A program made the translations under genes and the position numbers. Below, piece after piece: positions 10,801 to 31,382 of a stretch of 52,730 bases of DNA. Numbering within the stretch: the stretch's first letter is position 1; every line of letters begins with the position of its first letter. The stretch is taken from NCBI GenBank assembly GCA_024643345.1, contig JAHENB010000018.1, positions 1 to 52,730 of the forward strand, read 5' to 3'. The DNA comes from Maribacter sp. (GTDB lineage: Bacteria; Bacteroidota; Bacteroidia; Flavobacteriales; Flavobacteriaceae). Under the pieces are notes generated by a model that saw only the letters and a program-made list of their open reading frames with translations, had not been told where the DNA came from and searched no databases.

Positions 10801-13800
10801 ATCAGCGTAAAATCGGTGGTTCCTGTCACACTGATTTCAACCGCTTCCGGATCTCTACAATTCAAAGTTGATACCACTGTTAACGTAGGAACCACATCGG
10901 TCGGTGGATTGATGGTGGGCAGGTCAAAAGTAGTTTGACACCCGTTGCCGTCAATGGCATAAACAGTGATGTTCTGAGGCAACCCATTATCAACGATTTC
11001 AAAGGTATTGCCCAATTGGTAATTGCTAAAACCGGTAATGCTATATTGATATCCACTTCCCACCGTACCCGGGTTGCCCGGATCTACGTTCACCGTGATG
11101 ATCGTGGAACTGAAACGGTTTGCACCTGGTTCACAGGTAAAATCGGGAGCGCTTGCGGTTATGGCAAAATCACTTGGTTCTATAATTGTAAGGGGAGCTG
11201 AAAGTACTGAACATCCCCTGGCAGTCAGCACCTCTACTTGATATTGGGCCGGGGGTAATCCTGAGAAGGATCCCGTATTGTTGCGATCATGCTCCAATCC
11301 ACTACCGAGGTCGTTCAATATATATTCAATAGGGGTATCCACATCGGTGCCAAATTGCAATAGAATATCGATGCTACCATCATCGGAACCGAAACAACTG
11401 ATATCTTGTTTGAGTTCACTGGCGATTATTGGTGGAATGGCGGGCAACAATTGTACATTCACTATAAAGTCGCAAAGGGTCTCTGTGTCGGTTACTTCCA
11501 CTTGGTAGGTTCCCGGCGCAATTCCGTTAAAAATACCCGCTGTTCGATCGCCAGTGATAGGCGCTCCAATATTGGTTCCTACCCCATCCTGCAATTGATA
11601 ACTGAACTGGTTGCTACCACCTATGACACTTACTGTAATCACACCATCTGCATTGTTACAGGAAGGGCTAGAAGAAAAATCGCCAGAGGCTGACAAGAAT
11701 TCATAAACTTCGGCGGTACCCTGACTGGTACAGCCATTGGCATCGGTTACGTCGACCACATAGACGCCGGGACTGCTGACCTGAAAGGTGTATTCATATC
11801 GATTGTTTCCAATATTCAGCACTCCAAATTGGGTATCCCCGGCCAAGGTAAACCTTGGGGTGTCCACCAGGTTGGCATCCATGCTTACCGTAACATCGAA
11901 TTGTGTCGCAGTGACCACGCATTGGTTATCGACAGTAATGGTCGGTGGCACCAAGTTCGGCTGTAATTGGATCACAGTCGCAATGGCAAAGGAAGTACAA
12001 CCACTGATATCCCTCACAAAAACATCATAACTCCCCGCAGCGGCCACAAAAGTGGTTTCCAAGGTCCAATCGCCCACAGCAGGGGTGGCCCCAGTGGCCA
12101 TATAGGCAAACTCGTAGGGTCCACCTGCACCGCCTGCGCCCTGAACCGTAATTTGCCCTGCGGCATTACAATTTGCGGGTTCCTCCACCAAAATATCAAT
12201 GGTGGGCAGGTTTTGATCGATAATGATTCCCGTGGCATCAGTACAATCATCCGTTAAATTGGTCACGATTACCTGATAGTCTCCGGGCAAGGCAAGATAA
12301 TTATTGATATAAGGATCCACTCCAGGTGCTATGGTTTCAACAATAATGCGCGTTCCATCCAAGTTATTGAGCAGTTCAATCTGCAAATTATCCCCGGGGG
12401 CAAAACCCGTAACGGTGTAAATGATCTCGCCATTTCTGTTGACATCACAAAAACCAGCGGTAGAGGTTGCGGTGACATCCAAAGTTGAAGGCCCATTAAT
12501 TGGCGGAATCAAATCCAAATAGATACACCCTGTTGCCGTATCGGTAACCTCGACGGTATAGGCCACACCATACTGAAGTCCATTGAAGGTATGTCTTCTA
12601 GGGGGGGAATTTGGTGAAACAGGCGGTAATGGGTCATTCGCCAAGCGAATCAAGAACGGCCCTGTACCACCGAAAATTTCCACCGTATTGCTAAAACCTG
12701 TAGCACTACAGACCGGTAATGGTACAGGATCGGGAACCACATTGACGGTATTTTGAGTAATGGTCAAAGGATCGACATCCCTACATCCATTGGCATCCAA
12801 GGTAACTACGGTATAATTGCCAGGTATCAAAAGTGGATCATTAACGACCAGTGGCAACGAAGCAGGTGCCACATTATTGAAAGTGAACATTTGATTTCCC
12901 AAATTGTCCTCTATGATAAAGGTAAAATTGGCCGTGCCATTGCTTACACTATTGATGGTGATTCCTCCACTTACGCTACCCGCGCTACAAGTGGCTTGAA
13001 TCTCACTTACATTGGCATCAGGTCCTGGCGTAGCGTCCAAAGCGATGTTAACAAGTGCCAATGGTGTTTCACAACCTCGGGCATCCCTAACGATATAGGG
13101 ATAATTTCCGACTGCCAAATTGGAATAGACCGTTTGGGCGGTAAATGGGCCACCATTAAAACTGATTTCATATGGGGGTATACCACTTGTGGCATCCGGA
13201 GTGATAGTTACCGTACCATTGTTGGGGTTACCACAACTGACCGGTGTGGTCGAGACTATGGCGGGCGCAATCTGTTGCGGCGGGTCTACCACCAAAGGAG
13301 ATGAAAAAGCCTCACATCCTTCATTATCGGTAACCCTAAATATATAAGTACCGCCAGCTGTGACAGGATAAAGGAAGTTATTGGCCGCCAAAGGCTGCGA
13401 AACGCCATATGTGGCACCATTGTCGTTGCTCACCTGGTATTCCTTTGGGGTGGCACTGGCCAAATAGCCACCTGTGACCTGAACTTGAATCTGCCCGGGA
13501 GCCCCACCACAAGGAATGGCGGTATCTAAACTGATATTGACCCTCAATTGGGGATTTATAGTCACTCCGATCTGGTCCCTACAATTATTGCCATCTACTA
13601 CTTCAATGGTGTAATTGCCGGGACTCAGCCCCGCAAATATCGGACTGGCCTGCAAACTACCACCATTGATGCGATATTGATGGGTCGCCAAAGCCGCGGT
13701 TCCAGCGGTCGAGGTAACGGCAATGGTCGCACCGGTCCCAGGGATATAGCAGTAATCGCTCGAAGCGGCATCGACGGCTATGGTGGGCGAATCGATAGGC

Positions 13801-16403
13801 GTTAGGGTAAAATCATACGTGGTGGTGCATCCTTCGGCATCGGCCACAGAAAGGGTATAGGTACCCGGCACTGAGAGGTTATTAAAGGTGGTTCCCGTTT
13901 TTGGGCCTACGGTAGTCCCACCGCCAGGGTATACCAAGGTATACCTATAACCGCCCCATCCTCCGGATGCCGATGCGATCACCCTGCCTATATTGCCATT
14001 GGCACAACTCATAGCGGTTACATTTCCAGTAAGTGCAATGGGTGTTACAGGTTCAGAAATGGTAAAACCAATCGAATCTGTACAACCGGAATCTACATCC
14101 GTCACGGTTATGGTGTAGGTACCTGCCCCAGAAGGTGGCAAAATGACTTCAGCACCACTTTGTGGTCCGCCAGAGTATAGTCCCCCATTGATATCATAGG
14201 TATAATTATTTGCAAAACCATCGATGATATAGGTTCCGGTGCCGTCGGTTGCCCCGGTACAAACCCTTAAATCGCCCCCGGATTTTACCCTTGCCCTGAT
14301 GGAGCTAATTTGGGCGGGCGTAAAGCTTTCGGTAATGCTACAGCCATTGACATCGGTCGCCATAAACTGATAAGAAACATTGGTGGGCAATCCAATAAAA
14401 TTATTGCTCCCCCCATTGTTTAACGAAATGGGCGCAATTATTTCATAGGTAGCTATCGCGGCATTGGCCGTTACCGTCAATTGAACGTCCGATGTGCCGG
14501 CCGAACAATTAATATTACTCTGTGCAAAGGCAATATCGGTTGGTGGATCAACATTATTTATAACTATAGGGGTAAGGTCTCTTCTACAACCACTGTCATC
14601 AATAATGGCAGGGACATAACTACCTGCGGCCAAGCCCGTAAAATTAGGTGAAGGTGAAAAATTCACACCATCGATGCTATATTGGTAGCCAGTTCCCGAA
14701 CCCCCGGATACGCCTTGAATATCTATTTCACCACCATTGACGCCCCCTCCCGCAGCACAAGTCCTATCGGCGATTTTTATGGCAGTGCCATTGATGGCGC
14801 CCACTTCGGTTACCGTGACCGAATTGGGCATCGATAATATACAATTGAATGCTCCCGATTCGTATAGGACCTCAATATTATTATAAGTACCCGCGGATAC
14901 GGAAAGCACGGGGTTGGTACTCCATGGATCTCCGGAATCGGCCCTAAAAGACAGGTCGTATCCTTTGGCATCGGTAATATTGAATTGCAATCGAGCTCCA
15001 CCATTCGTACAGGTACCATCAACGCCATTTACCGTAATATCGGGCGGGGTAAGCTCTTCTACGTTTGCCGATGCCGTAATCGTACATCCATTGCTATCGG
15101 TTATCGTAAATTCATAGGTGCCTGGACTGTTAATGGTATGCACCCTTGAAGCGGCATAAGGCGGACTGGATGGCCCTGCTCCGTTAACAATGTAGCTATA
15201 TGGGGGTGTTCCGCCCGAGGTGTACACCGTAATGTCTACACTATTGATACCACATGCCGCGCTGAAACTATTGTTGGGCTCAGCGGAAGCAGCTAACGCC
15301 ACGACCCCATTTCCAATAATGATGGGATTCCCGGAGGTGTCCAAATTTTGCCTTGGTGGCAAGATACCGTTCAGGGGATCTCCTGTACATTGCTGGGTCT
15401 CGACCTGTACCGTGTAGGTGCCAAAACCTACTGCGGCAAAAGTATAAGGATTATTGGGTATAAATGCAGTAAATTCCTGTGCGGTCCCAGAAGCATCGAG
15501 CAAGGTATACTTGTATGGCCCGGGCACGTTGTTGGCCGTAACGGTAATCGTACCGGTATCCCCGGCACATTGTGCATCGGTAAATGTCACATCAATGTCT
15601 ATGTCCAGTTGTTGGATAACAATGGGTGCATAAGGATATTCACAAGCATCCGGCGTATTCTTTAAACGTGCTTTTACTACATAGGAACCGGGATTCAGGT
15701 TGTTGAAAATAGGACCCTGCCAAGGTCCAAAGCCGCTCCCGCTATTGATGCTGAACTCATAAGCGCTCGATAGGTTGGTTATCTGTATTCTTCCAGGAAC
15801 TCCACATATAAAATCGTTTTTCACGAAAGTCTGGGTAATATTACTCTTCTTAACTTTGAAGAAATATTGTTGGCCATCGGCAACCACCCTGAATTCAGCA
15901 CCTATGGAGGAAGGAATGGAAGCAGCATTGATCGTAAAGCTTGACCCGGTGGCCACTTGGGTATAACAGGAAGTGTTTGTATTTGGGCAATCGTTGTTGA
16001 TGTCTGCACTACAACTGCCCCCTAAAATTTGCCATGAAACGGAAGAATGACTACCCGAAAGGGTCACTAGCCTATTGTCGGAATCCCCGCAAAGGTTAAA
16101 GCGTGCCAGGGTACTGCCATCGTTTGCACAACCCACCAATTGGTCGGCCCCTTGGATAATGGTCGCAAACACGGGCTGAAAATAGGTGGATTCCTTCTTG
16201 GCCGCGCTCATCTGGCCGTCTAAAATCTTGTTGGTATCATCCAAGTTCCCCTCCTTGGATGCGCTATAGGGTCTTTCCAAAACGGAAGCCAATTCAGAAA
16301 TAAAATCAAATATTCTTGGGTTAGCTACGGCAGAAGTACATACTGCAGATAGGGCCAACAGCAGTACGGCATAGTAAATATGCCTTGTTTTTTTTGGGAG
16401 CAT
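7869..16403 (-). CDS. Giant SprB-repeat surface protein with T9SS type B sorting domain
   Basis: This 2844-residue protein is the largest in the window. A signal peptide spans about residues 1-27. A unique N-terminal region of about 200 residues follows, then about 28 tandem beta-rich repeats of roughly 80-100 residues. Each repeat begins with a cysteine before an acidic or glycine turn (for example PVSCNGEQDGTVTV) and most end in a D-x-x-G-C motif (DANGC, DENGC, DVEGC). This is the SprB-repeat pattern (PF13573). The last 85 residues are a type B T9SS sorting domain: FPNFFTPDGNGENDLW, KIYDRYGR and a final VGHFTLYR. SprB of Flavobacterium johnsoniae is a motile gliding adhesin. No PorP/SprF-type gene is adjacent. 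Surface location is well supported; a gliding role is inferred. Confidence 0.93.
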   Translation of the reverse strand: MLPKKTRHIYYAVLLLALSAVCTSAVANPRIFDFISELASVLERPYSASKEGNLDDTNKILDGQMSAAKKESTYFQPVFATIIQGADQLVGCANDGSTLARFNLCGDSDNRLVTLSGSHSSVSWQILGGSCSADINNDCPNTNTSCYTQVATGSSFTINAASIPSSIGAEFRVVADGQQYFFKVKKSNITQTFVKNDFICGVPGRIQITNLSSAYEFSINSGSGFGPWQGPIFNNLNPGSYVVKARLKNTPDACEYPYAPIVIQQLDIDIDVTFTDAQCAGDTGTITVTANNVPGPYKYTLLDASGTAQEFTAFIPNNPYTFAAVGFGTYTVQVETQQCTGDPLNGILPPRQNLDTSGNPIIIGNGVVALAASAEPNNSFSAACGINSVDITVYTSGGTPPYSYIVNGAGPSSPPYAASRVHTINSPGTYEFTITDSNGCTITASANVEELTPPDITVNGVDGTCTNGGARLQFNITDAKGYDLSFRADSGDPWSTNPVLSVSAGTYNNIEVLYESGAFNCILSMPNSVTVTEVGAINGTAIKIADRTCAAGGGVNGGEIDIQGVSGGSGTGYQYSIDGVNFSPSPNFTGLAAGSYVPAIIDDSGCRRDLTPIVINNVDPPTDIAFAQSNINCSAGTSDVQLTVTANAAIATYEIIAPISLNNGGSNNFIGLPTNVSYQFMATDVNGCSITESFTPAQISSIRARVKSGGDLRVCTGATDGTGTYIIDGFANNYTYDINGGLYSGGPQSGAEVILPPSGAGTYTITVTDVDSGCTDSIGFTISEPVTPIALTGNVTAMSCANGNIGRVIASASGGWGGYRYTLVYPGGGTTVGPKTGTTFNNLSVPGTYTLSVADAEGCTTTYDFTLTPIDSPTIAVDAASSDYCYIPGTGATIAVTSTAGTAALATHQYRINGGSLQASPIFAGLSPGNYTIEVVDGNNCRDQIGVTINPQLRVNISLDTAIPCGGAPGQIQVQVTGGYLASATPKEYQVSNDNGATYGVSQPLAANNFLYPVTAGGTYIFRVTDNEGCEAFSSPLVVDPPQQIAPAIVSTTPVSCGNPNNGTVTITPDATSGIPPYEISFNGGPFTAQTVYSNLAVGNYPYIVRDARGCETPLALVNIALDATPGPDANVSEIQATCSAGSVSGGITINSVSNGTANFTFIIEDNLGNQMFTFNNVAPASLPLVVNDPLLIPGNYTVVTLDANGCRDVDPLTITQNTVNVVPDPVPLPVCSATGFSNTVEIFGGTGPFLIRLANDPLPPVSPNSPPRRHTFNGLQYGVAYTVEVTDTATGCIYLDLIPPINGPSTLDVTATSTAGFCDVNRNGEIIYTVTGFAPGDNLQIELLNNLDGTRIIVETIAPGVDPYINNYLALPGDYQVIVTNLTDDCTDATGIIIDQNLPTIDILVEEPANCNAAGQITVQGAGGAGGPYEFAYMATGATPAVGDWTLETTFVAAAGSYDVFVRDISGCTSFAIATVIQLQPNLVPPTITVDNQCVVTATQFDVTVSMDANLVDTPRFTLAGDTQFGVLNIGNNRYEYTFQVSSPGVYVVDVTDANGCTSQGTAEVYEFLSASGDFSSSPSCNNADGVITVSVIGGSNQFSYQLQDGVGTNIGAPITGDRTAGIFNGIAPGTYQVEVTDTETLCDFIVNVQLLPAIPPIIASELKQDISCFGSDDGSIDILLQFGTDVDTPIEYILNDLGSGLEHDRNNTGSFSGLPPAQYQVEVLTARGCSVLSAPLTIIEPSDFAITASAPDFTCEPGANRFSSTIITVNVDPGNPGTVGSGYQYSITGFSNYQLGNTFEIVDNGLPQNITVYAIDGNGCQTTFDLPTINPPTDVVPTLTVVSTLNCRDPEAVEISVTGTTDFTLITSGPLGTVVPNVSVTGASTATVLLPDAGDYLIIVRDDSPNGCDYPLPKHTVIAPIDPVAAVSEAKPVTCFGDSNGELFIDVSTYTGLYNYTVYRSADITKTTPMATGSFDTANFPDINGDLARITGLPAGNFFVEVVEAAAPYCAADSNVVTVRTPNGALDVQAVEVGNVSCDDNLGTIDATGSGGWDTTPYEYQLLKDDGSGTYLVEVGFNANNQFQNLTSGDYRVEIRDVEGCTDTFDITLSAIPSIQAGIREPQNLVCPGGNNAVLEAYDLISGNPGAIGGVAGAGYKYQLIYLNSNNIADERERSGLQDSPTFIGAFGGVISAGWYAIEITSSYNCSFITPPYEVVPPPPVQPKLVQTQVPGCGGMGEMRLYIENPDPLFTYEYRIAPTPDPINDPYTDLVGNSILIPGIAGVLYQFDVRKKNASNTCNPVRSNGITMTDATGVTLLPNQPDDISCASELDGRIESFINGGVGNDIFTLYIGDPVDAFSPVVAAFRGPQNFGTFEGLPEGNQYYIAVTSGATCQDIAGPFEILRPEPIVFNADSTPVSCNGEQDGTVTVEVMSGGVGLIQFAIEPNFNEFFSDPATPGTYTFDDLAAGDYEILIQDENGCFEKDVITVTEPLSIQLTNIQVVPELCIGANDGSMVFEVVGGTPFVDPLVSPLPYFEYKVEMIAPIDQTGTGVFAPYDGMPIQNLQGGASYAIYIQDANLCSASDVFNVGIGVDLTAEPTVQYGCEGIFPNSTVTVEMQDSSLLPQMLFYLEDLNSTAPPLTMSQMINLAEPENTYGDLPAGQYRVHMFHSNGCSNMVEFIVDPYGPLTLTAEKTGPNELTASASGGFGGYEYYFQGQPQGSDNVYLTNVSGDVEVKVVDQMGCVAVVMIPFEFTGMLEFPNFFTPDGNGENDLWTINGRDFFPYIEIKIYDRYGRVVAILDQVTNWDGTYEGKDLPSGDYWYVVNQNDARNTRFVGHFTLYR

Positions 16404-18160: not shown

Positions 18161-18973
18161 CTATTTTTTATGCGTATCCAGTGCTTTCTTGACCGAGCCA
18201 TATTTTTGTAGCAGCTGCTCCGCTTCTTTATAATCAAGACCCAAACCTTCCATCACATAGCGGACGCCACGATCTACCAATTTGGTATTGCTCAACTGCA
18301 TATTAACCATTTTATTTCCTTTAACACGTCCTATTTTTATCATCAAGGCCGTCGAAATCATGTTGAGGACCAACTTTTGCGAGGTCCCGCTCTTCATTCT
18401 GGTGCTTCCTGTAACGAATTCAGGTCCCACGTTGATTTCAATGGCAATATCTGTGGCGAGGGCCAAGGGAGAACCTGGGTTATTCGTGATTCCGGCCGTG
18501 AGCAAGCCGTTCTTTTTGGCCTCTTCCACTCCGCCCAAAACGTAGGGCGTGGTTCCCGAAGCAGCAATTCCCACGACCACATCTTGTTTATTGATATCAT
18601 GCACCATGAGATCTTTCCAGGCCTGCTGCCGGTCATCCTCTGCGTTTTCAACCGACTTTCTGATGGCGGTATCGCCCCCAGCGATCAATCCGACCACGCG
18701 AGAATGTGGCATACCGTAAGTAGGGGGGATCTCAGAAGCGTCAAGAATGCCCAATCTCCCACTGGTACCGGCCCCAATATAGAAAAGTCGCCCTCCTTTA
18801 TCAAAACGTTCGGCCAAGGCATCTACCAAAAGGGTAATCTGCGGTATGGCCAAAGCCACTGCCTCGGCCACTTTACGATCTTCCAGATTCATTTTGGTGA
18901 GAATGGTCTGGGTATCCATCATGTCCAAACCCTCATGATGTGATGGTGTTTCGGTAATTTTTATGTATCCCAT
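18161..18973 (-). CDS. murQ: N-acetylmuramic acid 6-phosphate etherase
   Basis: A 270-residue SIS-domain enzyme that splits MurNAc-6-phosphate into GlcNAc-6-phosphate and D-lactate in the cytoplasm. The N-terminus carries the TETPSHH substrate segment. The SIS core has YIGAGTSGRLGILDASEIPPT, in which Glu81 corresponds to catalytic Glu83 of Escherichia coli MurQ. ENAEDD near residue 110 covers the second acidic catalytic position, and VTGSTRMKSGT follows. It is about 28 residues shorter than the E. coli enzyme, mainly at the C-terminus. It lies 8 bases downstream of the DeoR-type regulator gene on the same strand and divergent from the rest of the recycling operon. Confidence 0.96.
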   Translation of the reverse strand: MGYIKITETPSHHEGLDMMDTQTILTKMNLEDRKVAEAVALAIPQITLLVDALAERFDKGGRLFYIGAGTSGRLGILDASEIPPTYGMPHSRVVGLIAGGDTAIRKSVENAEDDRQQAWKDLMVHDINKQDVVVGIAASGTTPYVLGGVEEAKKNGLLTAGITNNPGSPLALATDIAIEINVGPEFVTGSTRMKSGTSQKLVLNMISTALMIKIGRVKGNKMVNMQLSNTKLVDRGVRYVMEGLGLDYKEAEQLLQKYGSVKKALDTHKK

Positions 18974-18981
18974 ATGAAAAT

Positions 18982-19731
18982 TTATAAAAGACGGATGTCG
19001 TGGTTTCTAAAAAGGTTCAGCAAGTTATTGTCGGGTTCCAACTCCGTTATCATGGTATTGATGGCATTGATATCGCAGGTTTTGTACCGGTGCTGTGAAT
19101 TGAGTTTTTCCGAAATACATAAAAGTACCGTTTTTTTAGAAGCCTTGATCACTGCCTTTTTAAGTTGTACGATATCCCAATCGAACTCCGTTAGGCCGTA
19201 CAATGAATCTACATATCCCGTTCCAATAAAACTATAGTCGACCTTAATTTCAGACAATTGATGAATGGCATGAGATCCGATTGAAATTTGGGCATCCCTG
19301 GATATTTTACCCCCAATAAAGATCACGTCGATATTGGGCTTGGCCAATAATTCAAAGGCAACCGGGAGGCTTAGGGTAAAACAAGTAAGTTCGAGATTCG
19401 TGGGAATCAAACGAGCCAATTCCAAACAGGTAGTACCCCCATCGATGAAAATGACGCCCCCTTGTTTCAATAACCTAATCGCTTTTTCAGCTATTTTGGT
19501 CTTTTCCTCTAATGCATAAATAGTTCCATTTCTTGCACCATAACTTGTAAAACCCAAGGAAACGGCCCCCCCATGAACTTTCTTCAATTTGTTTTCACCA
19601 TCAAGTTCCTTTACATCACGCCTGACCGTATCGATGGATACGTCCAACGATTCCGCGATGTCGGTGAGCAGCACTCGGTTGTGCAAGGCCACTTCGTTTA
19701 AAATAAGTTGCTGACGTTCTTCTTTGAGCAT
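18982..19731 (-). CDS. DeoR/GlpR-family transcriptional regulator
   Basis: The start is placed at ATG 19731, giving 249 residues that begin MLKEERQQLILNEV, the usual DeoR opening. The frame stays open 41 codons further upstream, but that part is low-complexity and crosses the promoter. The N-terminal winged helix (residues about 5-55) includes LTDIAESLDVSIDTVRRDV. The C-terminal DeoRC sugar-phosphate sensor domain (about 75-235) includes FIDGGTTCLELARLI. The family usually represses sugar catabolic operons and releases DNA on binding a phosphorylated sugar. Located between murQ and the nagB-fusion operon, it most likely controls both. The inducer would plausibly be GlcNAc-6-P, GlcN-6-P or MurNAc-6-P (inference). 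Confidence 0.9.
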   Translation of the reverse strand: MLKEERQQLILNEVALHNRVLLTDIAESLDVSIDTVRRDVKELDGENKLKKVHGGAVSLGFTSYGARNGTIYALEEKTKIAEKAIRLLKQGGVIFIDGGTTCLELARLIPTNLELTCFTLSLPVAFELLAKPNIDVIFIGGKISRDAQISIGSHAIHQLSEIKVDYSFIGTGYVDSLYGLTEFDWDIVQLKKAVIKASKKTVLLCISEKLNSQHRYKTCDINAINTMITELEPDNNLLNLFRNHDIRLL

Positions 19732-19915: not shown

Positions 19916-21859
19916 ATGGCCGGAACTTCCACAAAACCCAAAACAATGAACTTTCCTACGGATGAAGAATCGAAAAAATTCGAGAAGATAAATACCATTA
20001 TCCATGAGAGCTCCAACGATGCATCCTTCTTTGTGGCCAACGAAATTGCCGAACTGATCCGGCAGCGTCAAAAAGAAGGAAAAAATATGGTCTTAGGCCT
20101 GGCAACGGGATCAACGCCGACGAAAGTCTATGAATTCCTGGTCAAATTCCACCATGAAGAAGGCTTAAGTTTTAAGAACGTAATCACTTTCAATCTTGAT
20201 GAGTACTATCCGATTTCGGCCGATTCCATCCATAGTTATGTTCGTTTCATGAACGAACATCTTTTTAACCATATCGATATCAAAAAGGAGAATATCAATA
20301 TTCCAGACGGGAATCTGGACAAGGAAGATGTTAAGGAATTTTGTGCCCTATATGAAAAGAAAATAGAGGAAGCGGGGGGCATCGACATTCAAATTCTGGG
20401 TATCGGAAGAACCGGTCATATCGGTTTTAACGAACCTGGATCGTCCTTAAAAAGCAAAACCCGTATGGTAAGGCTAGACCGGGTGACCCGTTTGGATGCG
20501 GCCAGTGATTTTTTTGGATTGGAAAACGTTCCTTCCAAGGCGCTGACCATGGGTGTTGGGACCATAATGGCCGCAAAACGTATTGTTCTGATGGCCTGGG
20601 GCGAAGGAAAGGCCGGGATTATCAAGCTGGCCGTCGAGGGCAAGATTCAGGAATCGGTTCCCGCCACTTTCTTACAGCAACATCCAAATTGTGATTTTAT
20701 AGTTGACCAAGCCGCCGCCTCTGCCCTAACCCGGATATGCACCCCTTGGTTGGTGAGTGAATGCATATGGACCGACTCCTTGATCAAAAAGGCCGCCATT
20801 TGGCTTTCGGATAAAGTGGATAAGGCCATTTTAAAACTCACAAATGAACACTACAACGAACATGGAATGGGTAGTTTGGTCGCCGAAATCGGTTCTGCCG
20901 AACATATCAACCTAAAAGTATTCAATCAACTTCAACGCACCATCACGGGATGGCCGGGAGGCAAACCCAATGCCGATGATACCAACCGTCCCGAGCGCAA
21001 TGCACCCTACCCAAAAAGGTCGATGATCTTTAGTCCACACCCCGATGATGATGTCATCTCCATGGGTGGTACCTTATTGCGCCTGGTAGACCATGGACAT
21101 GAAGTGCACGTAGCGTACCAAACTTCTGGAAATATTGCGGTATTCGATGATGAGGTGATTCGGTTCATGGATTTTGCCACGGACATCCAAAAAGAAAATA
21201 AGTCCTTAAGGGAAGAATTTAAAAAGGTCAGGGAATTCTTGAGCAACAAATCCCCTGGAGAAATAGACAGTCCTGAAATACAACGTTTCAAAGGCCTTAT
21301 ACGAAAAGGTGAGGCGCTGGCCGCCTGTAGGTACTGCGGTGTCGATGAAAAAAATGCCCACTTTCAGAACCTTCCCTTTTATGAAACCGGTACCGTAAAG
21401 AAAAAACCGCATTCAGAAGCAGACGTTCAAATTACCTACAATCTTTTAAACCAGGTTAAACCCCATCAGATTTTTGCAGCGGGAGATCTTTCAGATCCCC
21501 ATGGCACGCACCGGGTTTGCCTTCAGATCATTTATGAAGCCTTGGACCGATTGGTGAAAGAAGGCGCGGAATGGATCGATGACTGTTATCTTTGGTTATA
21601 CCGGGGCGCATGGCAAGAGTGGGATATTGCCGACATGGAAATGGCAGTGCCAATAGGACCAAAAGACATGCAAAGAAAGAAAAACGCCATTTTCAAGCAC
21701 CAGTCGCAAAAAGATGCCGCCATGTTCCCAGGTAACGACGATCGGGAATTTTGGCAACGGGCCGAACAGCGAAATATGGATACCGCCCGAAAGTACAATT
21801 CGCTGGGATTGGCCGAATATGAGGCAATGGAAGGCTTTGTGAGGTATAAGTTCAAATAA
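19916..21859 (+). CDS. NagB-type glucosamine-6-phosphate deaminase fused to a PIG-L/LmbE deacetylase domain
   Basis: The start is ATG 19916 (647 residues); an in-frame TTG at 19847 would add 23 unlikely residues and overlap the operator. Residues about 15-300 are a NagB/RpiA-fold domain: phosphate loop GLATGSTPTKVYE, Asp95 in FNLDEYYP (E. coli Asp72), and GRTGHIGFNEP with His168 and Glu173 conserved. The residue matching catalytic Asp141 of E. coli NagB is Thr166. Residues about 365-600 are a PIG-L domain with the zinc motif HPDDD (His375, Asp377, Asp378) and HGTH (His529, His532). PIG-L enzymes de-N-acetylate GlcNAc conjugates. The protein could thus do deacetylation and deamination in one chain, but the Asp-to-Thr change leaves the deaminase activity open. 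First gene of the recycling operon. Confidence 0.9.
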   Translation: MAGTSTKPKTMNFPTDEESKKFEKINTIIHESSNDASFFVANEIAELIRQRQKEGKNMVLGLATGSTPTKVYEFLVKFHHEEGLSFKNVITFNLDEYYPISADSIHSYVRFMNEHLFNHIDIKKENINIPDGNLDKEDVKEFCALYEKKIEEAGGIDIQILGIGRTGHIGFNEPGSSLKSKTRMVRLDRVTRLDAASDFFGLENVPSKALTMGVGTIMAAKRIVLMAWGEGKAGIIKLAVEGKIQESVPATFLQQHPNCDFIVDQAAASALTRICTPWLVSECIWTDSLIKKAAIWLSDKVDKAILKLTNEHYNEHGMGSLVAEIGSAEHINLKVFNQLQRTITGWPGGKPNADDTNRPERNAPYPKRSMIFSPHPDDDVISMGGTLLRLVDHGHEVHVAYQTSGNIAVFDDEVIRFMDFATDIQKENKSLREEFKKVREFLSNKSPGEIDSPEIQRFKGLIRKGEALAACRYCGVDEKNAHFQNLPFYETGTVKKKPHSEADVQITYNLLNQVKPHQIFAAGDLSDPHGTHRVCLQIIYEALDRLVKEGAEWIDDCYLWLYRGAWQEWDIADMEMAVPIGPKDMQRKKNAIFKHQSQKDAAMFPGNDDREFWQRAEQRNMDTARKYNSLGLAEYEAMEGFVRYKFK

Positions 21860-21874
21860 TACCGCAGACCAGGA

Positions 21875-21909
21875 CATGGGCATTCCATATTATTGTGGAA
21901 TTGCCCATG
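21875..21909 (+). other. Strong hairpin between the nagB fusion gene and the GHL10 gene
   Basis: CATGGGCA-TTCCA (21875-21887) pairs with TGGAA-T-TGCCCATG (21896-21909): a 13-bp stem with one bulged T and an 8-base loop. A T-rich but interrupted tract follows (21911-21925). It may be an attenuator, an RNA-processing or stability element, or a leaky terminator inside the operon. Confidence 0.6.
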
Positions 21910-21934
21910 CTTTATTCTGTTTTTACATCCAACC

Positions 21935-23452
21935 ATGAGGCCTAGACTTTTATGTTTTTTATTAGTGGTACTTGCTAGTTCCTGTACCATTTTCAGACCC
22001 ATACCTCATCCTAAAACCGAATTTAGAGGGGTTTGGATCGCCACGGTGGCGAACATAGATTGGCCCAAAAACGGTAACGATGCCGTTCAAAAGCAAAAAG
22101 CGGATTACCTCACCATATTAGACTTCTACCAGGATTTGAACTTTAACGCGGTCATTGTACAAGTGCGTACGGCGGGCGATGCTTTCTATGTTTCTGAATA
22201 TGCACCATGGTCTCGTTTTTTGACCGGGGAAGAGGGCCGGACTCCCAATACTCAAGAAGATATTTTGAAATGGATGATCACAGAGGCCCATCTTCGTGGA
22301 ATGGAGTTCCATGCATGGCTTAATCCTTATCGAGCCACCTTCGACTTAAAGACCGAACGGCTTAGCCCTACACATGATTTCAACCTGCATCCCGAGTGGA
22401 TGCTAAAATACGGCACCAAATACTATTATGACCCGGGGATACCCGAAGTTCAAGATCGTTTGGTTGCCATCATTGGGGAGGTCGTCTCCAGATACGATAT
22501 CGATGCCATTCATTTCGATGATTACTTCTATCCTTATAAAATAAAAGATGCGGTATTTGAGGACGCCAATACTTATCGATTCTATCATAAAAGTGTCGAA
22601 TCCCACGAAGATTGGCGACGGGCGAATATAGATTCGCTTATCAAAAATACACACCACATCATCAAAGCCAACAAACCATGGGTGCAATTTGGCGTCAGTC
22701 CGTTCGGGGTTTGGAAAAACAAAGCAACTGACCCCAAAGGATCCGATACCCAGGCCGGCCAAACCACATATGAAGACCTTTATGCGGACCCCCTTTTATG
22801 GTCTAGCAGGGGTTGGTTGGATTATCTGGTACCACAAGTGTATTGGAGCATGGATTTGCCAGTGGCCTCGCATAGAAAAATCATGGAATGGTGGGCCAGC
22901 AACATCAAAAATACCAATCTCTACATCGGAAACGGGGTCTATAAAATAAGGAACAATACCGATAGTGTTTGGTACGACAAAAGGGAACTACCTAGACAGC
23001 TGACCCTTGCCAGAAAAACCACAAAGGTAAATGGCAACGTATTTTTCAGTGCCAAGAGTTTAATGCAGAACCATAGCGACATTGTCGCCCATCTTAAGAA
23101 AAAATATTATCGTCTGCCTGCACTGCCCCCTTCATCGGATCCGAAGCCGATAAAGGAAAACGCCAGTTTAGCAATGTCAAGCTCACCTTCTGGCGAACTA
23201 ACCTTTAAAATTCCGGAAGGTTATAGGTATGCAATGGTATATGACTCTGGGAGAAAGCGAAAAAAGGACTATTCAATGAAAAAATTGAAATTAAAAATTT
23301 CAATCTTAGACGAAAATTTGTTGACGCTACCAAAGTCGGTTTTAACCAATAAAAAACAGCTTGCAATTTCATTTATAGATTTTTATGGCCGTGAAACCAA
23401 TCCAATCTTAGTACATTTAAACCAAACCAACCATTATGATCCAAAAAAATAA
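21935..23452 (+). CDS. GHL10-family glycoside hydrolase lipoprotein (PF02638, DigH-like)
   Basis: The start is ATG 21935 (505 residues); this begins a compact signal peptide with lipobox LASSC. Residues about 30-350 form the GHL10 domain (formerly DUF187): EFRGVWIATVANIDWP, QVRTAGDAFY, GMEFHAWLNPYR, DAIHFDDYFYP, WVQFGVSPFGVW and YLVPQVYW. The C-terminal 120 residues are a less conserved extension. The E. coli member DigH (YddW) is a division-associated lipoprotein that cuts denuded peptidoglycan glycan strands. Its place inside a recycling operon, overlapping the ampG-like gene by 17 bases, supports the same role here: making transportable fragments outside the cytoplasm. The family call is strong and the substrate inferred. 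Confidence 0.85.
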   Translation: MRPRLLCFLLVVLASSCTIFRPIPHPKTEFRGVWIATVANIDWPKNGNDAVQKQKADYLTILDFYQDLNFNAVIVQVRTAGDAFYVSEYAPWSRFLTGEEGRTPNTQEDILKWMITEAHLRGMEFHAWLNPYRATFDLKTERLSPTHDFNLHPEWMLKYGTKYYYDPGIPEVQDRLVAIIGEVVSRYDIDAIHFDDYFYPYKIKDAVFEDANTYRFYHKSVESHEDWRRANIDSLIKNTHHIIKANKPWVQFGVSPFGVWKNKATDPKGSDTQAGQTTYEDLYADPLLWSSRGWLDYLVPQVYWSMDLPVASHRKIMEWWASNIKNTNLYIGNGVYKIRNNTDSVWYDKRELPRQLTLARKTTKVNGNVFFSAKSLMQNHSDIVAHLKKKYYRLPALPPSSDPKPIKENASLAMSSSPSGELTFKIPEGYRYAMVYDSGRKRKKDYSMKKLKLKISILDENLLTLPKSVLTNKKQLAISFIDFYGRETNPILVHLNQTNHYDPKK

Positions 23453-24716
23453 ATGGGCCTGGGCTTGGGTTCCCATTCTTTATTTCACCCAAGGTTTGCC
23501 TTACGTGATGGTGGTCACCGTTTCGGTGATCATGTACAAAAAATTAGGAATAAGCAATGCCGATATCGGTCTTTATACCAGTTGGCTTTACCTTCCCTGG
23601 GTAATCAAACCGCTGTGGAGTCCGTTCGTTGACTTAAAAAGTACGAAGCGCAACTGGTTTCTAACCACACAATTGGTTATTTCTTTGGCCTTATTGGGGG
23701 TAGGACTCACGATACCGACGAATATTTTTTTCATCACTTCTCTGGCATGTTTTTGGATGGCCGCCTTCGCATCGGCTACGAACGATATTGCTTCCGACGG
23801 CTATTACATGATAGGCCTTACCGAGGAAAAACAATCATTTTTCGTAGGGCTGCGAAGCACCTTCTATAAATTATCGACCGTTACCGGACAGGGGCTTCTG
23901 GTCATTCTGGCCGGTTTTCTTGAAAACGAATACGGCGATAATACAAAAGCTTGGTCGATCACTATGATTTGTGCCGCTTTCTTAATGCTTTTGCTGACCA
24001 TCTCCAACTTTTTAGTAACCCCGAAGTTCGAAACTTCAGATGCCATTGCGCTCGACAAACCGGCCAGTTTCATGGAAGTGTTCATCTCATTCTTTAAAAA
24101 ACGGGGTATGGCCGCCGCCTTGACATTTATCTTGCTCTTTCGCCTGGGCGAATCGCAATTGGTAAAAATGGCGTCACCATTCTTATTGGATCCGACTTCT
24201 GTGGGGGGTCTGGGATATACCACTTCTCAGGTTGGAACCATATATGGCACCATTGGGGTCATTATGTTGACCGTTGGGGGAATCTTGGGAGGAATCCTAA
24301 TATCAAGGGATGGATTGAAGAAATGGATGTTGCCCATGTTGCTTTCCTTAAATGTTCCCAATGCATTATATGCCTTACTGGCCATTACCAAAACTACCAA
24401 TATCGCTGCCGTTGTGGGCACGGTGGTACTTGAGCAATTTGGTTATGGTTTCGGCATTGCTGGTTTTATGGTATACCTGATCTATATAGCGGAAGGAAAA
24501 TCGAAAACCTCCCATTATGCCATTGCAACAGGATTTATGGCTCTAGGCATGATGCTTCCAGGCCTGATCAGTGGTTATATTCAAGAGTGGCTTGGGTACG
24601 GCGGTTTTTTTGTGTGGGTTGTCATTGCGGCTTTTCCCGCCATCATAATGTTAAGATATATCAACTATCCGGCCGATTTTGGCAAAGCAAATACAAGAAA
24701 TGCAGAAGGTTCTTAG
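23436..24716 (+). CDS. AmpG-like MFS muropeptide permease
   Basis: A 426-residue protein with about 12 predicted membrane helices and no signal peptide. The N-terminus has WVPILYFTQGLPYVMVVTV, then GLYTSWLYLPWVIKPLWSP, the AmpG-type first helices and loop, and a SATNDIASDGYYM segment. AmpG proteins import GlcNAc-anhydroMurNAc, with or without peptide, across the inner membrane. The start ATG 23436 overlaps the GHL10 gene by 17 bases, and its own end overlaps the GH3 gene by 17 bases, which points to translational coupling. Genomic context (NagZ, AnmK, MurQ) favours muropeptide over other sugars. Confidence 0.85.
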   Translation: MIQKNKWAWAWVPILYFTQGLPYVMVVTVSVIMYKKLGISNADIGLYTSWLYLPWVIKPLWSPFVDLKSTKRNWFLTTQLVISLALLGVGLTIPTNIFFITSLACFWMAAFASATNDIASDGYYMIGLTEEKQSFFVGLRSTFYKLSTVTGQGLLVILAGFLENEYGDNTKAWSITMICAAFLMLLLTISNFLVTPKFETSDAIALDKPASFMEVFISFFKKRGMAAALTFILLFRLGESQLVKMASPFLLDPTSVGGLGYTTSQVGTIYGTIGVIMLTVGGILGGILISRDGLKKWMLPMLLSLNVPNALYALLAITKTTNIAAVVGTVVLEQFGYGFGIAGFMVYLIYIAEGKSKTSHYAIATGFMALGMMLPGLISGYIQEWLGYGGFFVWVVIAAFPAIIMLRYINYPADFGKANTRNAEGS

Positions 24717-26316
24717 TTATCGGCAAGCCAAGGGCTTGCTTACACCCTTAGAAAAGGTCGGGCAATTATTCATGCCAGCGGCCTTTATCAATGATACGGA
24801 GGTTGAAATAAGACAATTGGAACAGCTGATCGGAAAACATCATGTAGGTGGACTCTGTTTTTTCCATAGCCGTGCGAGTGCCGCAACCAACTATGAAGGA
24901 AAGAAAAAGGTCGTCTATAATGAGAAGAGCTTCGAAGTGCTTTCTGCACTAATTCAGCGTTACCAAAAAGTGGCAACTTATCCATTGCTCATAGCCATCG
25001 ATGCCGAGTGGGGATTGGCCATGCGTGTCGAAAATACACCACAATACCCCTATGCCATTACTCTAGGGGCCATACAAGGTGATGATGACCTGATTTTTGA
25101 GATGGGAAAAAACATCGCTAAAGACTGCCAAGCGGCTGGAATCCATTGGAATTTGGCCCCAGTGGTCGATATCAACAACAACCCAAGTAATCCGGTGATC
25201 GGATACCGTTCATTTGGCGAAGATAAGATCAAGGTAACCCAAAAGGCATTGGCGTACGTTAAAGGCATGGCACATGAGGGCCTCTTGACAAGTATTAAAC
25301 ATTTTCCGGGCCATGGTGATACCGAAACAGACTCGCATTTGGGACTTCCATTAATAGATAAGACCAAGGAAGCCCTAATACAAAACGAACTATTTCCTTT
25401 TCAAGAATTGATAGATAAGGGCGTAGATTCTGTGATGGTGGGGCATTTATCTGTCCCTTCCTTGGCAAACGGAAATACCGTTCCTTCCAGTATTTCCAAA
25501 GAAATCATCAAAGGTGTATTACGTAAGGAAATGGGGTTTAAAGGCGTTGTAATTTCAGACGCATTGAACATGCATGCAGTATCAAAAAACTACCCTGTCA
25601 AAGGGGAACTGGAATGGCTGGCCTTCGATGCAGGCAATGATGTGCTCTGCTTTGCGGAACACACCAAGGAGGCCATTGGTACCATCCTCCGTAAATCTTC
25701 GGAACAAGCGATTGAAGAAAGCTTTGAACGGATTTGGCGCCTTAAGGAAAAGGCCATCAAACCAAAATCCTTCGAATCATCGGCATTTCAAAGAACGATT
25801 TTGTCCGATCCTTCGGTATTGAACCAAAAAATTGCCCGTAAAAGCTTGATACTTGCCAAAGGCAATGAAGATAAAATTGCCGCTTTTGCGTCGAAAAAAT
25901 TTCTAAAGCTATCGATGCCCCAAACTGAAAATAACTTCTTTTTTAAGGCCCTCGATGAAAAACTGCCCAATTCCGGCATGTCTTTGGACATCAATGATGA
26001 GGTGCAATATGCCAAGGTTTTGGAAACCCAAAAAAGTATACTTTTGGCTTTGTTTCCGCGTCAGATAAAGCCCGCCAATAATTTCGGATATAGCAAAGCG
26101 GAGTTAAAAGCGATCAATAGACTTATTCAAACCAAGGAGGTGATGCTTTATCTTTTTGGAAATCCTTATGTATTAAGGCTTCTAGACATTTCAAAGGCAA
26201 AAGCCGTAGTGGTTGCCCATCAAGATCTTGAGGACTTCCAAAAAGAGGCCGCAGCGCATTTTTCGGGTGAATTCAAAGCTTGCGGCAAATTGCCTGTAAC
26301 ACTTCGAAAGCCATGA
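24700..26316 (+). CDS. Cytoplasmic GH3 beta-N-acetylhexosaminidase (NagZ-like)
   Basis: The start is ATG 24700 (538 residues); an upstream in-frame TTG at 24679 is less likely. The GH3 barrel (about 15-340) has the NagZ hallmark KHFPGHGDTETDSH, with the general-acid His205 and Asp207 dyad, and the nucleophile Asp287 in VVISDALNMH. IAIDAEWGLAMRV precedes these. A C-terminal alpha/beta domain of about 180 residues follows. There is no signal peptide, unlike the long exported GH3 proteins of many Bacteroidota, which suits an enzyme acting on disaccharide imported by AmpG. It would release GlcNAc from anhydroMurNAc. It overlaps the anmK gene by 4 bases (ATGA). Confidence 0.9.
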   Translation: MQKVLSYRQAKGLLTPLEKVGQLFMPAAFINDTEVEIRQLEQLIGKHHVGGLCFFHSRASAATNYEGKKKVVYNEKSFEVLSALIQRYQKVATYPLLIAIDAEWGLAMRVENTPQYPYAITLGAIQGDDDLIFEMGKNIAKDCQAAGIHWNLAPVVDINNNPSNPVIGYRSFGEDKIKVTQKALAYVKGMAHEGLLTSIKHFPGHGDTETDSHLGLPLIDKTKEALIQNELFPFQELIDKGVDSVMVGHLSVPSLANGNTVPSSISKEIIKGVLRKEMGFKGVVISDALNMHAVSKNYPVKGELEWLAFDAGNDVLCFAEHTKEAIGTILRKSSEQAIEESFERIWRLKEKAIKPKSFESSAFQRTILSDPSVLNQKIARKSLILAKGNEDKIAAFASKKFLKLSMPQTENNFFFKALDEKLPNSGMSLDINDEVQYAKVLETQKSILLALFPRQIKPANNFGYSKAELKAINRLIQTKEVMLYLFGNPYVLRLLDISKAKAVVVAHQDLEDFQKEAAAHFSGEFKACGKLPVTLRKP

Positions 26317-27389
26317 AAACCTATACTATTTTAGGTCTTATGTCGGGCACTTCCTTGGATGGGTTGGACCTAGCCCATTGCCAATTCATCAAAACCCAAG
26401 ATCGTTGGGAATACCAGATCTTAGCACATAAAAGCATTCCTTATTCGAAGCAAATGCGGACAGCATTAAAGGATGCCATATTTTTAAAGGCGGAAGATCT
26501 TTTGCAATTGAACAATTCATATGGCACGTGGCTTGGTGAACAAGCCAGATCGTTCATTGAAGATCACCGATTGCAGGTCGATGCCATTGCCAGTCACGGT
26601 CATACCACCCACCACCAGCCAGATAAGGGTTTTACCTACCAGATCGGTTCCGGGCAACACTTGGCTAATGCATGTGGCTTGAAGGTCATTTGTGATTTCA
26701 GGACCAATGATGTCGCTTTGGGTGGGCAGGGTGCCCCATTGGTCCCTATCGGAGACCAACTGCTTTTCGGACAATATGACTTTTGTTTGAACCTAGGGGG
26801 TATCAGCAATATTTCATTCGACCTGAATGGAATTCGGATCGCTTACGATATAGGACTTGCCAATATGATCTTGAACCATATCACGAGGAAAATTGGCCTC
26901 GACTTCGATCGTGGCGGTGCTTTGGCACGCAATGGAAAACGCAACGAGGCCATGTTGTCAAAATTGAACCAGCTTGAATTCTATACCTTGCCCCCTCCAA
27001 AATCAATCGGCTATGAATGGTTTGTTGAAAAGGTCGTACCCATTGTGGATGCTACCGATGACAACACCGAAAATTTGCTTCATACGGCCGTAATCCATAT
27101 CTGTGCAAAAATTTTCGATCAGATAAAGCGCCATCAAAAATCGAAAGGTCAAACAATGTTAGTGACAGGCGGTGGGGCCTGGAACGATTTTTTAATAGAG
27201 ACCCTGCAGCAAGATCTGGGACAAGACACCAAAATCGTCTTACCTTCAAGTGTTTTGATCGAGACCAAGGAAGCCTTGATTTTTGCTTTGATGGGTGCAT
27301 TGCGCTTGGAACATCAGATCAATGTATATGCCTCGGTAACCGGAGCAAGAAGAGATTCTTCTAGCGGGGTTTTATATCTCCCAAGTTGA
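26313..27389 (+). CDS. anmK: Anhydro-N-acetylmuramic acid kinase
   Basis: The start is ATG 26313 (358 residues), coupled to the GH3 gene through an ATGA overlap. The N-terminus GLMSGTSLDGLDLAH is the family signature. CDFRTNDVALGGQGAPLVPIGD, the catalytic-Asp region AYDIGLAN (GPGN in many homologues) and VTGGGAWNDFLIE follow in order. The enzyme opens 1,6-anhydroMurNAc with ATP to give MurNAc-6-phosphate, the substrate of MurQ encoded at the other end of this locus. It is the last gene of the operon before the acetate-transport module. Confidence 0.95.
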   Translation: MKTYTILGLMSGTSLDGLDLAHCQFIKTQDRWEYQILAHKSIPYSKQMRTALKDAIFLKAEDLLQLNNSYGTWLGEQARSFIEDHRLQVDAIASHGHTTHHQPDKGFTYQIGSGQHLANACGLKVICDFRTNDVALGGQGAPLVPIGDQLLFGQYDFCLNLGGISNISFDLNGIRIAYDIGLANMILNHITRKIGLDFDRGGALARNGKRNEAMLSKLNQLEFYTLPPPKSIGYEWFVEKVVPIVDATDDNTENLLHTAVIHICAKIFDQIKRHQKSKGQTMLVTGGGAWNDFLIETLQQDLGQDTKIVLPSSVLIETKEALIFALMGALRLEHQINVYASVTGARRDSSSGVLYLPS

Positions 27390-27709: not shown

Positions 27710-27736
27710 CACCACCAACCGAAAACAAGATTAATT

Positions 27737-29437
27737 ATGGATGTTCAAACATGGACCTATATTTTAGTGGGAATTACCTTTTCGCTCTATATCGGTATCG
27801 CCATTTGGTCCCGTGCAGGTTCCACTAAAGAGTTCTATGTAGCCGGAGGGGGCGTTTCACCATGGGCCAACGGCATGGCCACGGCTGCCGATTGGATGTC
27901 GGCCGCATCCTTCCTTTCAATGGCAGGGATCATCGCTTTTGCAGGTTACGACGGTTCTGTTTATTTGATGGGATGGACCGGCGGTTATGTATTGTTGGCC
28001 TTGCTATTGGCACCTTACCTGAGAAAATTCGGCAAATTTACCGTTCCCGATTTTATAGGCGATCGGTATTATTCCAATTCATCGAGGATCGTAGCGGTAT
28101 TCTGTGCGCTTTTGGTGTCATTCACATATGTGGCAGGGCAAATGCGGGGCGTTGGAGTGGTTTTTTCACGATTTCTTGAGGTGGATATCAATACCGGTGT
28201 GATTATCGGGATGGTCATCGTTTTGTTCTACGCGGTACTTGGCGGCATGAAAGGAATAACATACACCCAAGTAGCGCAATATTGTGTGTTGATTTTTGCG
28301 TTTATGGTACCTGCCATATTTATTTCGATCCAAATGACGGGAAACCCTGTTCCGCAATTGGGCATGGGTTCGGCATTGAACGATGGTTCGGGGACCTATC
28401 TTCTGGATAAGCTCAATGGACTCTCCACCGAGCTCGGTTTTGCAGAATATACTTCGGGCACAAAAAGTACGCTCGATGTCCTGGCGATAACCTTGGCATT
28501 GATGGTAGGAACGGCCGGACTGCCCCATGTCATTGTGCGCTTCTTCACCGTAAAAAGGGTCAAGGATGCGAGAAAATCGGCCGGCTTGGCCCTTTTGTTG
28601 ATCGCTATTTTGTATACCACTGCCCCCGCAGTAGCCGTTTTTGCAAAAACCAACCTGATCGACACGGTAAGCAATCAACCATATAATACCTTACCAGTCT
28701 GGTTCAAAAATTGGGAAAAAACCGGCTTGTTGACTTTTGAAGACAAGAACGGGGATGGCAAAATACAATACGTGGCCGACCCCAAAACCAATGAGCTTAA
28801 GATCGACAACGATATTATGGTCTTGGCCAATCCAGAGATTGCCAATCTCCCTGCCTGGGTCATCGCTTTGGTGGCGGCCGGTGGCCTTGCAGCCGCCCTT
28901 TCCACTGCAGCGGGCTTGTTATTGGTAATTTCGTCTTCGGTATCCCATGACCTCATTAAAAAGGTATTCGTACCCAATATCTCAGAGCGGGGGGAATTAT
29001 GGACCGCCAGAATTGCCGCCACCTTTGCCGTGGTGGTCGCGGGATATTTCGGCATTAATCCGCCTGGTTTCGTTGCCGCCGTTGTGGCCTTGGCCTTTGG
29101 TCTGGCTGCCGCTTCTTTTTTTCCCGCCATTGTATTGGGCATTTTTTACAAAAAAATGAACAAGGAAGGCGCTGTAACGGGCATGATCGTAGGAATCACC
29201 CTAATGTTGTACTACATGATCAAATATAAATTGGGCTGGTTCGACAGCACCCTTCCAAATAAAAGCGAATGGTGGTTCGGCATTTCCCCCGAAGGATTTG
29301 GGGCCGTTGCGATGCTCGCCAATTTTCTTGTTTCAATTTTGGTGATGCGGTTTACACCTCCTCCTCCACAGCACGTTCAGGATATTGTTGAAGATATTCG
29401 TATTCCAAGTGGGGCAAGGGAAGCTACCGGGCACTGA
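27737..29437 (+). CDS. Sodium:solute symporter, VC_2705 subfamily (probable acetate/short-chain acid permease)
   Basis: A 566-residue integral membrane protein with about 13-14 helices of the SSS family. Residues about 30-60 hold the EFYVAGGGVSPWANGMATAADWMS signature in parts, with a second conserved stretch GTAGLPHVIVRFFTV near 260. Between helices around 315-375 is a soluble loop with an EF-hand-like sequence DKNGDGKIQ beginning at Asp336, a known feature of this subfamily. Relatives import acetate or other monocarboxylates. The partner DUF4212 gene upstream and acs downstream (37 bases) make acetate the best guess. Confidence 0.88.
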   Translation: MDVQTWTYILVGITFSLYIGIAIWSRAGSTKEFYVAGGGVSPWANGMATAADWMSAASFLSMAGIIAFAGYDGSVYLMGWTGGYVLLALLLAPYLRKFGKFTVPDFIGDRYYSNSSRIVAVFCALLVSFTYVAGQMRGVGVVFSRFLEVDINTGVIIGMVIVLFYAVLGGMKGITYTQVAQYCVLIFAFMVPAIFISIQMTGNPVPQLGMGSALNDGSGTYLLDKLNGLSTELGFAEYTSGTKSTLDVLAITLALMVGTAGLPHVIVRFFTVKRVKDARKSAGLALLLIAILYTTAPAVAVFAKTNLIDTVSNQPYNTLPVWFKNWEKTGLLTFEDKNGDGKIQYVADPKTNELKIDNDIMVLANPEIANLPAWVIALVAAGGLAAALSTAAGLLLVISSSVSHDLIKKVFVPNISERGELWTARIAATFAVVVAGYFGINPPGFVAAVVALAFGLAAASFFPAIVLGIFYKKMNKEGAVTGMIVGITLMLYYMIKYKLGWFDSTLPNKSEWWFGISPEGFGAVAMLANFLVSILVMRFTPPPPQHVQDIVEDIRIPSGAREATGH

Positions 29438-29474
29438 TATTTTTTTTAATTTTATGACATAAACCATAGCTGGT

Positions 29475-31382
<1,908 letters not shown>

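Follow-up and report, generated by a model that had tools for sequence, protein, structure and literature searches.

The window, that is, the whole stretch of 52,730 nucleotides analysed here (contig JAHENB010000018.1 of the Maribacter sp. assembly GCA_024643345.1), carries on its plus strand a gene in which a NagB half, a linker and a PIG-L half are joined in one open frame, and this gene sits in a muropeptide-recycling cluster. The features are given below, one per line, with neighbour counts obtained by tblastn of the window proteins against 80 named loci, which are the best 80 of 208 relatives and therefore close kin. Residue counts refer throughout to an alignment of 171 rows, made up of the window protein and 170 further fusion ORFs, which, minus two duplicate rows, holds 169 distinct sequences.

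18161–18973, minus strand: MurQ, MurNAc-6-phosphate etherase (TIGR00274, 304.7 bits, cut-off 302); 80/80 named loci
18982–19731, minus strand: DeoR-family regulator, divergent from the fusion (DeoRC 137.4 bits, HTH_DeoR 50.7 bits); 80/80 named loci
19916–21859, plus strand: NagB–linker–PIG-L fusion gene of the NF002557/PRK02122 family, 647 aa, open from ATG to stop
19979–20740, plus strand: NagB (glucosamine-6-phosphate deaminase) half, residues 22–275 (NCBIfam, Pfam, Foldseek match to 2bkv)
20411–20413, plus strand: codon ACC of Thr166, at the E. coli Asp141 position
20507–20509, plus strand: codon GAT of Asp198, at the E. coli Arg172 position
20741–21013, plus strand: conserved linker, residues 276–366, absent from the split pair of genome G218
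21014–21856, plus strand: PIG-L zinc deacetylase half, residues 367–647 (Pfam)
21038–21052, plus strand: HPDDD motif, residues 375–379 (H375 in 169/169, D377 in 165/169, D378 in 169/169)
21500–21511, plus strand: HGTH motif, residues 529–532 (H529 and H532 each in 167/169)
21893–23452, plus strand: GHL10 glycosyl-hydrolase-like protein (246.3 bits); 54/80 named loci
23436–24716, plus strand: AmpG-like muropeptide MFS transporter (TIGR00901, 182.2 bits, below the cut-off of 350); 70/80 named loci
24679–26316, plus strand: NagZ-like GH3 beta-N-acetylhexosaminidase (NF003740, 158.2 bits, below the cut-off of 207); 65/80 named loci
26280–27389, plus strand: AnmK, anhydro-MurNAc kinase (NF007144, 507.5 bits, cut-off 436); 53/80 named loci

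Pfam places Glucosamine_iso at residues 39–255 and PIG-L at residues 370–542 of the window protein, both above the gathering score (for PIG-L, PF02585, 65.6 bits against 28.2), and NCBIfam matches residues 8–646 to NF002557 with 1068.7 bits (cut-off 384). The protein also passes TIGR00502 (nagB; 266 bits, cut-off 236.9), and TIGR00221 (NagA) is absent among the 10 NCBIfam families that match it at E 0.01. Together with the open frame itself, these results bear out the initial annotation, in which the gene was read as a NagB fused to a PIG-L deacetylase; the elements named there, being Asp95, His168, Glu173, the phosphate loop, HPDDD, HGTH and Thr166 (GRTGH against GNDGH in E. coli), are all present. 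An AlphaFold2 model made with 65 sequences has a pLDDT of 89.8 and a pTM of 0.82. A chance origin of the joined frame can be dismissed: another 170 ORFs from relatives' loci span both halves, and a match above the NF002557 cut-off is present in 125 genomes of a phylum sample of 296. The window protein is an ordinary Thr-type member of this already named family, which it matches over its full length and in which nothing sets it apart. The family name, glucosamine-6-phosphate deaminase-like protein, makes no claim of tested function, and in the titles, abstracts and passages covered by searches of open-access literature, no description of the activity of a NagB–PIG-L fusion was found. Two papers list BT0258 in a table row with glucosamine-6-phosphate deaminase (PMC10434189) and PGN_0606 as deaminase-like (PMC3764172), both of them possible members of the family.

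The PIG-L half of the window protein carries the HPDD and HxxH zinc motifs, in common with the PIG-L deacetylases at large (archaeal diacetylchitobiose deacetylase, BshB and MshB), from which the fusion differs in its NagB half, its long conserved C-terminal part and its proposed 6-phosphate substrate. When the predicted model was compared with solved structures by Foldseek, the region taken as the PIG-L half appeared to resemble archaeal diacetylchitobiose deacetylases, with an rmsd of 5–6 Å and a TM score of 0.62–0.67 on the target, which is a loose match.

The neighbourhood is that of muropeptide recycling. The DeoR and MurQ genes always lie upstream and on the strand opposite to the fusion (80/80 named loci), with no more than 203 bases separating the DeoR gene from the fusion frame. 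Of the 68 loci whose flanks are long enough on either side, 29 have all six neighbours; when neighbours are counted more strictly, as blastp clusters lying within 6.5 kb, MurQ remains in 79, the AmpG-like transporter in 64 and the GH3 enzyme in 56. MurQ, the reaction of which yields GlcNAc-6-P, occurs in 124 of the 125 fusion genomes. As a further partner, a BadF-type GlcNAc kinase was rejected on the grounds that the genome of the window has no PF01869 match; ROK matches number three in the same genome. Downstream of AnmK, positions 27710–31379 hold a VC_2705-family sodium/solute symporter and the acetate–CoA ligase AcsA, which could take up and activate acetate; their inclusion in the system is unsupported, with a symporter match in 10 of the 66 loci with enough flank. 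Elsewhere in the window, at 7869–16403 of the minus strand, lies the gene for a protein of 2844 aa that combines SprB repeats with a CHU_C type IX secretion signal domain at its C-terminus, an architecture like that of a gliding adhesin.

No nagA had been seen in the window by the initial annotation, and this extends to the whole genome (99.94% complete), in which the best TIGR00221 match reaches 28.7 bits against a cut-off of 225.65. Elsewhere in this genome, and not noted by the initial annotation, there is a second NagB-family gene (L216 1492–2211, G000:C51), of galactosamine-6-phosphate-isomerase type; it scores 266.6 bits with that family, its closest, just under the cut-off of 271. Among close relatives, 39 of the 40 genomes searched, representing 40 of the 80 named loci and including several metagenome-assembled ones of unstated completeness, are likewise NagA-less. 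In the phylum sample of 296 genomes the fusion occurs in 125 and NagA in 44, distributed over 24/125 fusion genomes, 18/30 standalone-NagB-only genomes and 2/141 genomes of neither type. Standalone-NagB-only here means a TIGR00502 match at E ≤1e-30 and no fusion, a class that includes a few low-scoring NagB relatives. NagA is thus lacking in 101/125 fusion genomes versus 12/30 standalone-NagB-only genomes (Fisher p 2e-5, uncorrected for kinship). With a lenient definition of NagA (at least 150 bits) the three counts become 30, 20 and 2, and 105 genomes then have a NagB-type protein and no NagA, 104 of which carry a NagB and PIG-L arrangement: 95 the fusion, one a split pair and eight a long variant. 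In the remaining genome, G147, no such arrangement was found.

The split pair belongs to the NagA-less genome G218 (L230 8175–9850, minus strand) and consists of a 263-aa NagB ORF and, 23 bases further on and in the same orientation, a 286-aa PIG-L ORF, an order that matches that of the two halves in the fusion; they score 312.6 and 263.6 bits with NF002557. It has no linker, has Asn at position 166 and Asp at position 198, and keeps the zinc motifs; trees place it near the Ser-type fusions with mixed support. That the two halves also occur as adjacent separate genes supports a shared pathway. The long variant, of approximately 790 aa and found in other Bacteroidota families (L231–L242), falls short of the NF002557 cut-off of 384 bits, 12 examples scoring 198–219, and in the two long variants scanned with Pfam at 1e-5 neither domain was found. 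The PIG-L residues His375, Asp377, Asp378 and His532 are kept in it, but Glu stands in place of His529 and Val or Ile in place of Glu173. It was found in 3/10 NagA-positive standalone-NagB genomes searched (of 20) and in 0/10 genomes without NagB.

Judged from this genome context, the fusion is probably a bifunctional GlcNAc-6-P deacetylase and GlcN-6-P deaminase, and as such a stand-in for NagA. AmpG-like import, processing by the NagZ-like enzyme and AnmK, and then MurQ would deliver GlcNAc-6-P to the fusion, the C-terminal zinc hydrolase of which would remove acetate from it, this being the NagA step carried out by an enzyme unrelated to NagA in fold. The GlcN-6-P so formed would then be deaminated and isomerised to fructose-6-phosphate and ammonia in the NagB half at the N-terminus. 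GlcN-6-P may be handed over between the two sites, and the DeoR protein may regulate the cluster. This scheme predicts both enzymatic activities, a 6-phosphate substrate for the PIG-L half, the regulation and any hand-over. With NagA itself (TIGR00221), an amidohydrolase, the fusion would share reaction and position in the pathway, a likeness of proposed function without membership; the fold and zinc site of NagA are unrelated to those of the PIG-L half. A precedent for the pairing exists in the archaeal chitin route, where the PIG-L deacetylase Dac works with a SIS-type glucosamine-phosphate deaminase. There, unlike in the fusion, the two are encoded by separate genes, and the deaminase has another fold than NagB. 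This archaeal deaminase is also set apart in PMC4281351.

The suggestion of the initial annotation that the fusion could replace NagA is strengthened by the NagA-less genome of the window, by 39/40 relatives and 101/125 fusion genomes, by the split pair and by the half-broken copies described below. It is qualified by coexistence, as NagA accompanies the fusion in 24 (strict) or 30 (lenient) of the 125 genomes. In one case, G067, the two are neighbours: nagA immediately precedes a fusion gene on the same strand, with approximately 84 bp between match ends. In G244 nagA follows a fusion gene at a distance of approximately 5 kb. The family to which the window belongs has NagA in 5/24 fusion genomes and in 0/8 others. 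Simple displacement of NagA by the fusion is therefore too strong a statement, the two coexisting in 24/125 genomes and NagA being confined to fusion genomes within that family.

Such coexistence is also what would be seen if the NagB half were a GlcN-6-P deaminase and the PIG-L half acted on free GlcNAc, diacetylchitobiose, a GlcNAc muropeptide or another N-acetylated sugar, with GlcNAc-6-P handled otherwise. We consider this rather unlikely, though it accommodates several observations. The solved PIG-L-type proteins matched are diacetylchitobiose deacetylases. In an Asn-type clade of the fusion (23 sequences, tree support 0.947, zinc motifs intact), 16 members are from NagA-positive genomes and one from a NagA-like-positive genome, and 7 of the 23 loci have a neighbour that clusters with a GH20 hexosaminidase, one representative of that cluster being annotated. 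MurQ, moreover, is common without NagA, NagB or fusion (63 of the 139 genomes that lack both NagB and NagA), so the presence of MurQ need not imply the fusion route and is weakened as proof of a need for a deacetylase. MurQ is likewise present in 8/8 genomes of the window's family that have neither NagA nor fusion over the cut-off (G028, G052, G056, G087, G153, G225, G256 and G289). Against another substrate stands the finding that most fusion genomes lack NagA and that 100/101 of these NagA-less genomes have MurQ, which calls for a GlcNAc-6-P deacetylase. The genome of the window has five PIG-L matches, and those other than the fusion are BshB1 and three with signal-like starts (judged by eye). 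Fusion to, or adjacency with, a 6-phosphate deaminase finally suggests consecutive steps.

Experimental work on F. johnsoniae is also counted against the stand-in reading. According to PMC5127042, deletion of the F. johnsoniae ChiUL nagB (Fjoh_4557, a possible member of the fusion family) leaves chitin use unaffected, and three further nagB-like genes are present in that organism; NagA is predicted there, and E. coli did not serve as a host for expressing the Fjoh_4557 protein (PMC5127042 and PMC7426924). Both NagA and NagB are reported from another flavobacterium in PMC4324048, and a table in PMC10673404 lists, for one chitin-degrading strain, MurQ and a deaminase without a deacetylase, and for two other strains both.

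We now turn to the deaminase site. The catalytic positions of NagB, which we take to be Asp72, His143, Glu148 and Lys208 in E. coli numbering, are all occupied as expected in the window protein and are nearly invariant in the family (D95 168/169, H168 168/169, E173 169/169, K232 169/169). Two further positions depart from E. coli NagB. At the Asp141 position the window protein has Thr166, and the family as a whole has T in 133, N in 23, S in 12, V in 1 and D in 0 of 169, so Thr is not invariant in it. Asn is found here in B. subtilis NagB (2bkv), as well as in 7 of the 30 standalone Bacteroidota NagBs with the best scores; NagBs thus vary at this position, and Thr166 is a trait of the fusion family. 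The initial annotation had raised a new reaction or mere substrate binding on the basis of this Thr, which by itself is a weak argument, the position varying in NagBs and the other catalytic residues being kept; as the sole sign of a new reaction it was rejected. At the Arg172 position, passed over by the initial annotation, the window protein has Asp198, and the family has D in 138, E in 12, S in 10, A in 4, G in 2, T in 2, N in 1 and R in 0 of 169, thus Asp or Glu in 150/169 distinct members, while Arg is found in 30/30 best-scoring standalone Bacteroidota NagBs and in the five solved NagBs compared. This is the larger change and the more interesting question about the site. E. coli Arg172 presumably contacts the substrate phosphate; no paper stating this contact was found in the open-access literature searched.

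At the position of the allosteric residue Lys160, 168 of the 171 alignment rows have V or I. PMC4281351 includes Lys160 among the activator-binding residues of E. coli NagB and describes the B. subtilis type as monomeric and without known activator. The NagB half is like the latter type at this position, and its predicted structure superimposes on B. subtilis NagB 2bkv (PDB title: structure and kinetics of a glucosamine-6-phosphate deaminase) with 1.1 Å rmsd over approximately 247 columns. With this monomeric GlcN-6-P deaminase (2bkv/2bkx) the fusion shares the fold, the Asp, His, Glu and Lys residues and a residue other than Asp at the Asp141 position; it differs in having Thr where the B. 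subtilis enzyme has Asn, in having Asp198 where that enzyme keeps Arg, and in its PIG-L half.

Copies of the fusion with one broken half further inform on the role of each domain. In G229 (L031/L208) and G237 (L207), of one genus, the NagB half lacks Asp95 and His168 and has Val at 166, and the PIG-L motifs are intact; in both genomes NagA is absent and a separate NagB scores above the cut-off. Conversely, in L173–L176 Asp377 is replaced by Ala (and in two of the four also His532 by Tyr) with the NagB residues kept, and each of these genomes, G118 included, has a second fusion gene with intact motifs. The halves thus decay singly where another gene can cover, as expected if both are enzymes, and since L173–L176 keep their NagB residues while losing PIG-L residues, the NagB half appears to be kept for its own sake. 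Natural copies of this kind are also pointers to controls.

That the altered NagB site (Thr, Asn or Ser for Asp141 and mostly Asp for Arg172) confers a new specificity or a regulatory or binding-only role, with the PIG-L half as the working enzyme, would fit the loss of Arg172 from all 169 members and the persistence of the gene in G229 and G237, but is improbable in view of the near-invariant catalytic residues, of Asn at the Asp141 position in an enzyme titled a glucosamine-6-phosphate deaminase, and of the four copies that lose PIG-L rather than NagB residues.

Returning to the fusion as a bifunctional stand-in for NagA, further observations are counted against it: the Asn-type clade has intact zinc motifs although most of its members are from NagA-positive genomes; L168, the sole fusion match in the NagA-less genome G145, has His529 changed to Asn; the long variant has changes at Glu173 and His529 and no Pfam match to either domain in the two scanned; and the Arg172 position is lost in all members. 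A wider proposal, which we put forward tentatively, is that the PIG-L half may be the missing GlcNAc-6-phosphate deacetylase of the many Bacteroidota in which a NagB-type deaminase is present and NagA absent. This deacetylase would occur in three architectures, namely the fusion, adjacent split genes and the approximately 790-aa long variant, and the deaminase site of the fusion, with no Asp141, no Arg172 and a conserved linker, may have been rebuilt for hand-over of GlcN-6-P. If true, an unrelated deacetylase fold, concealed by the annotation of its genes as glucosamine-6-phosphate deaminase, would close a widespread gap in the GlcNAc and peptidoglycan-sugar metabolism of Bacteroidota, and pathway predictions in which such genomes count as NagA-deficient, or the gene as NagB only, would have to be revised.
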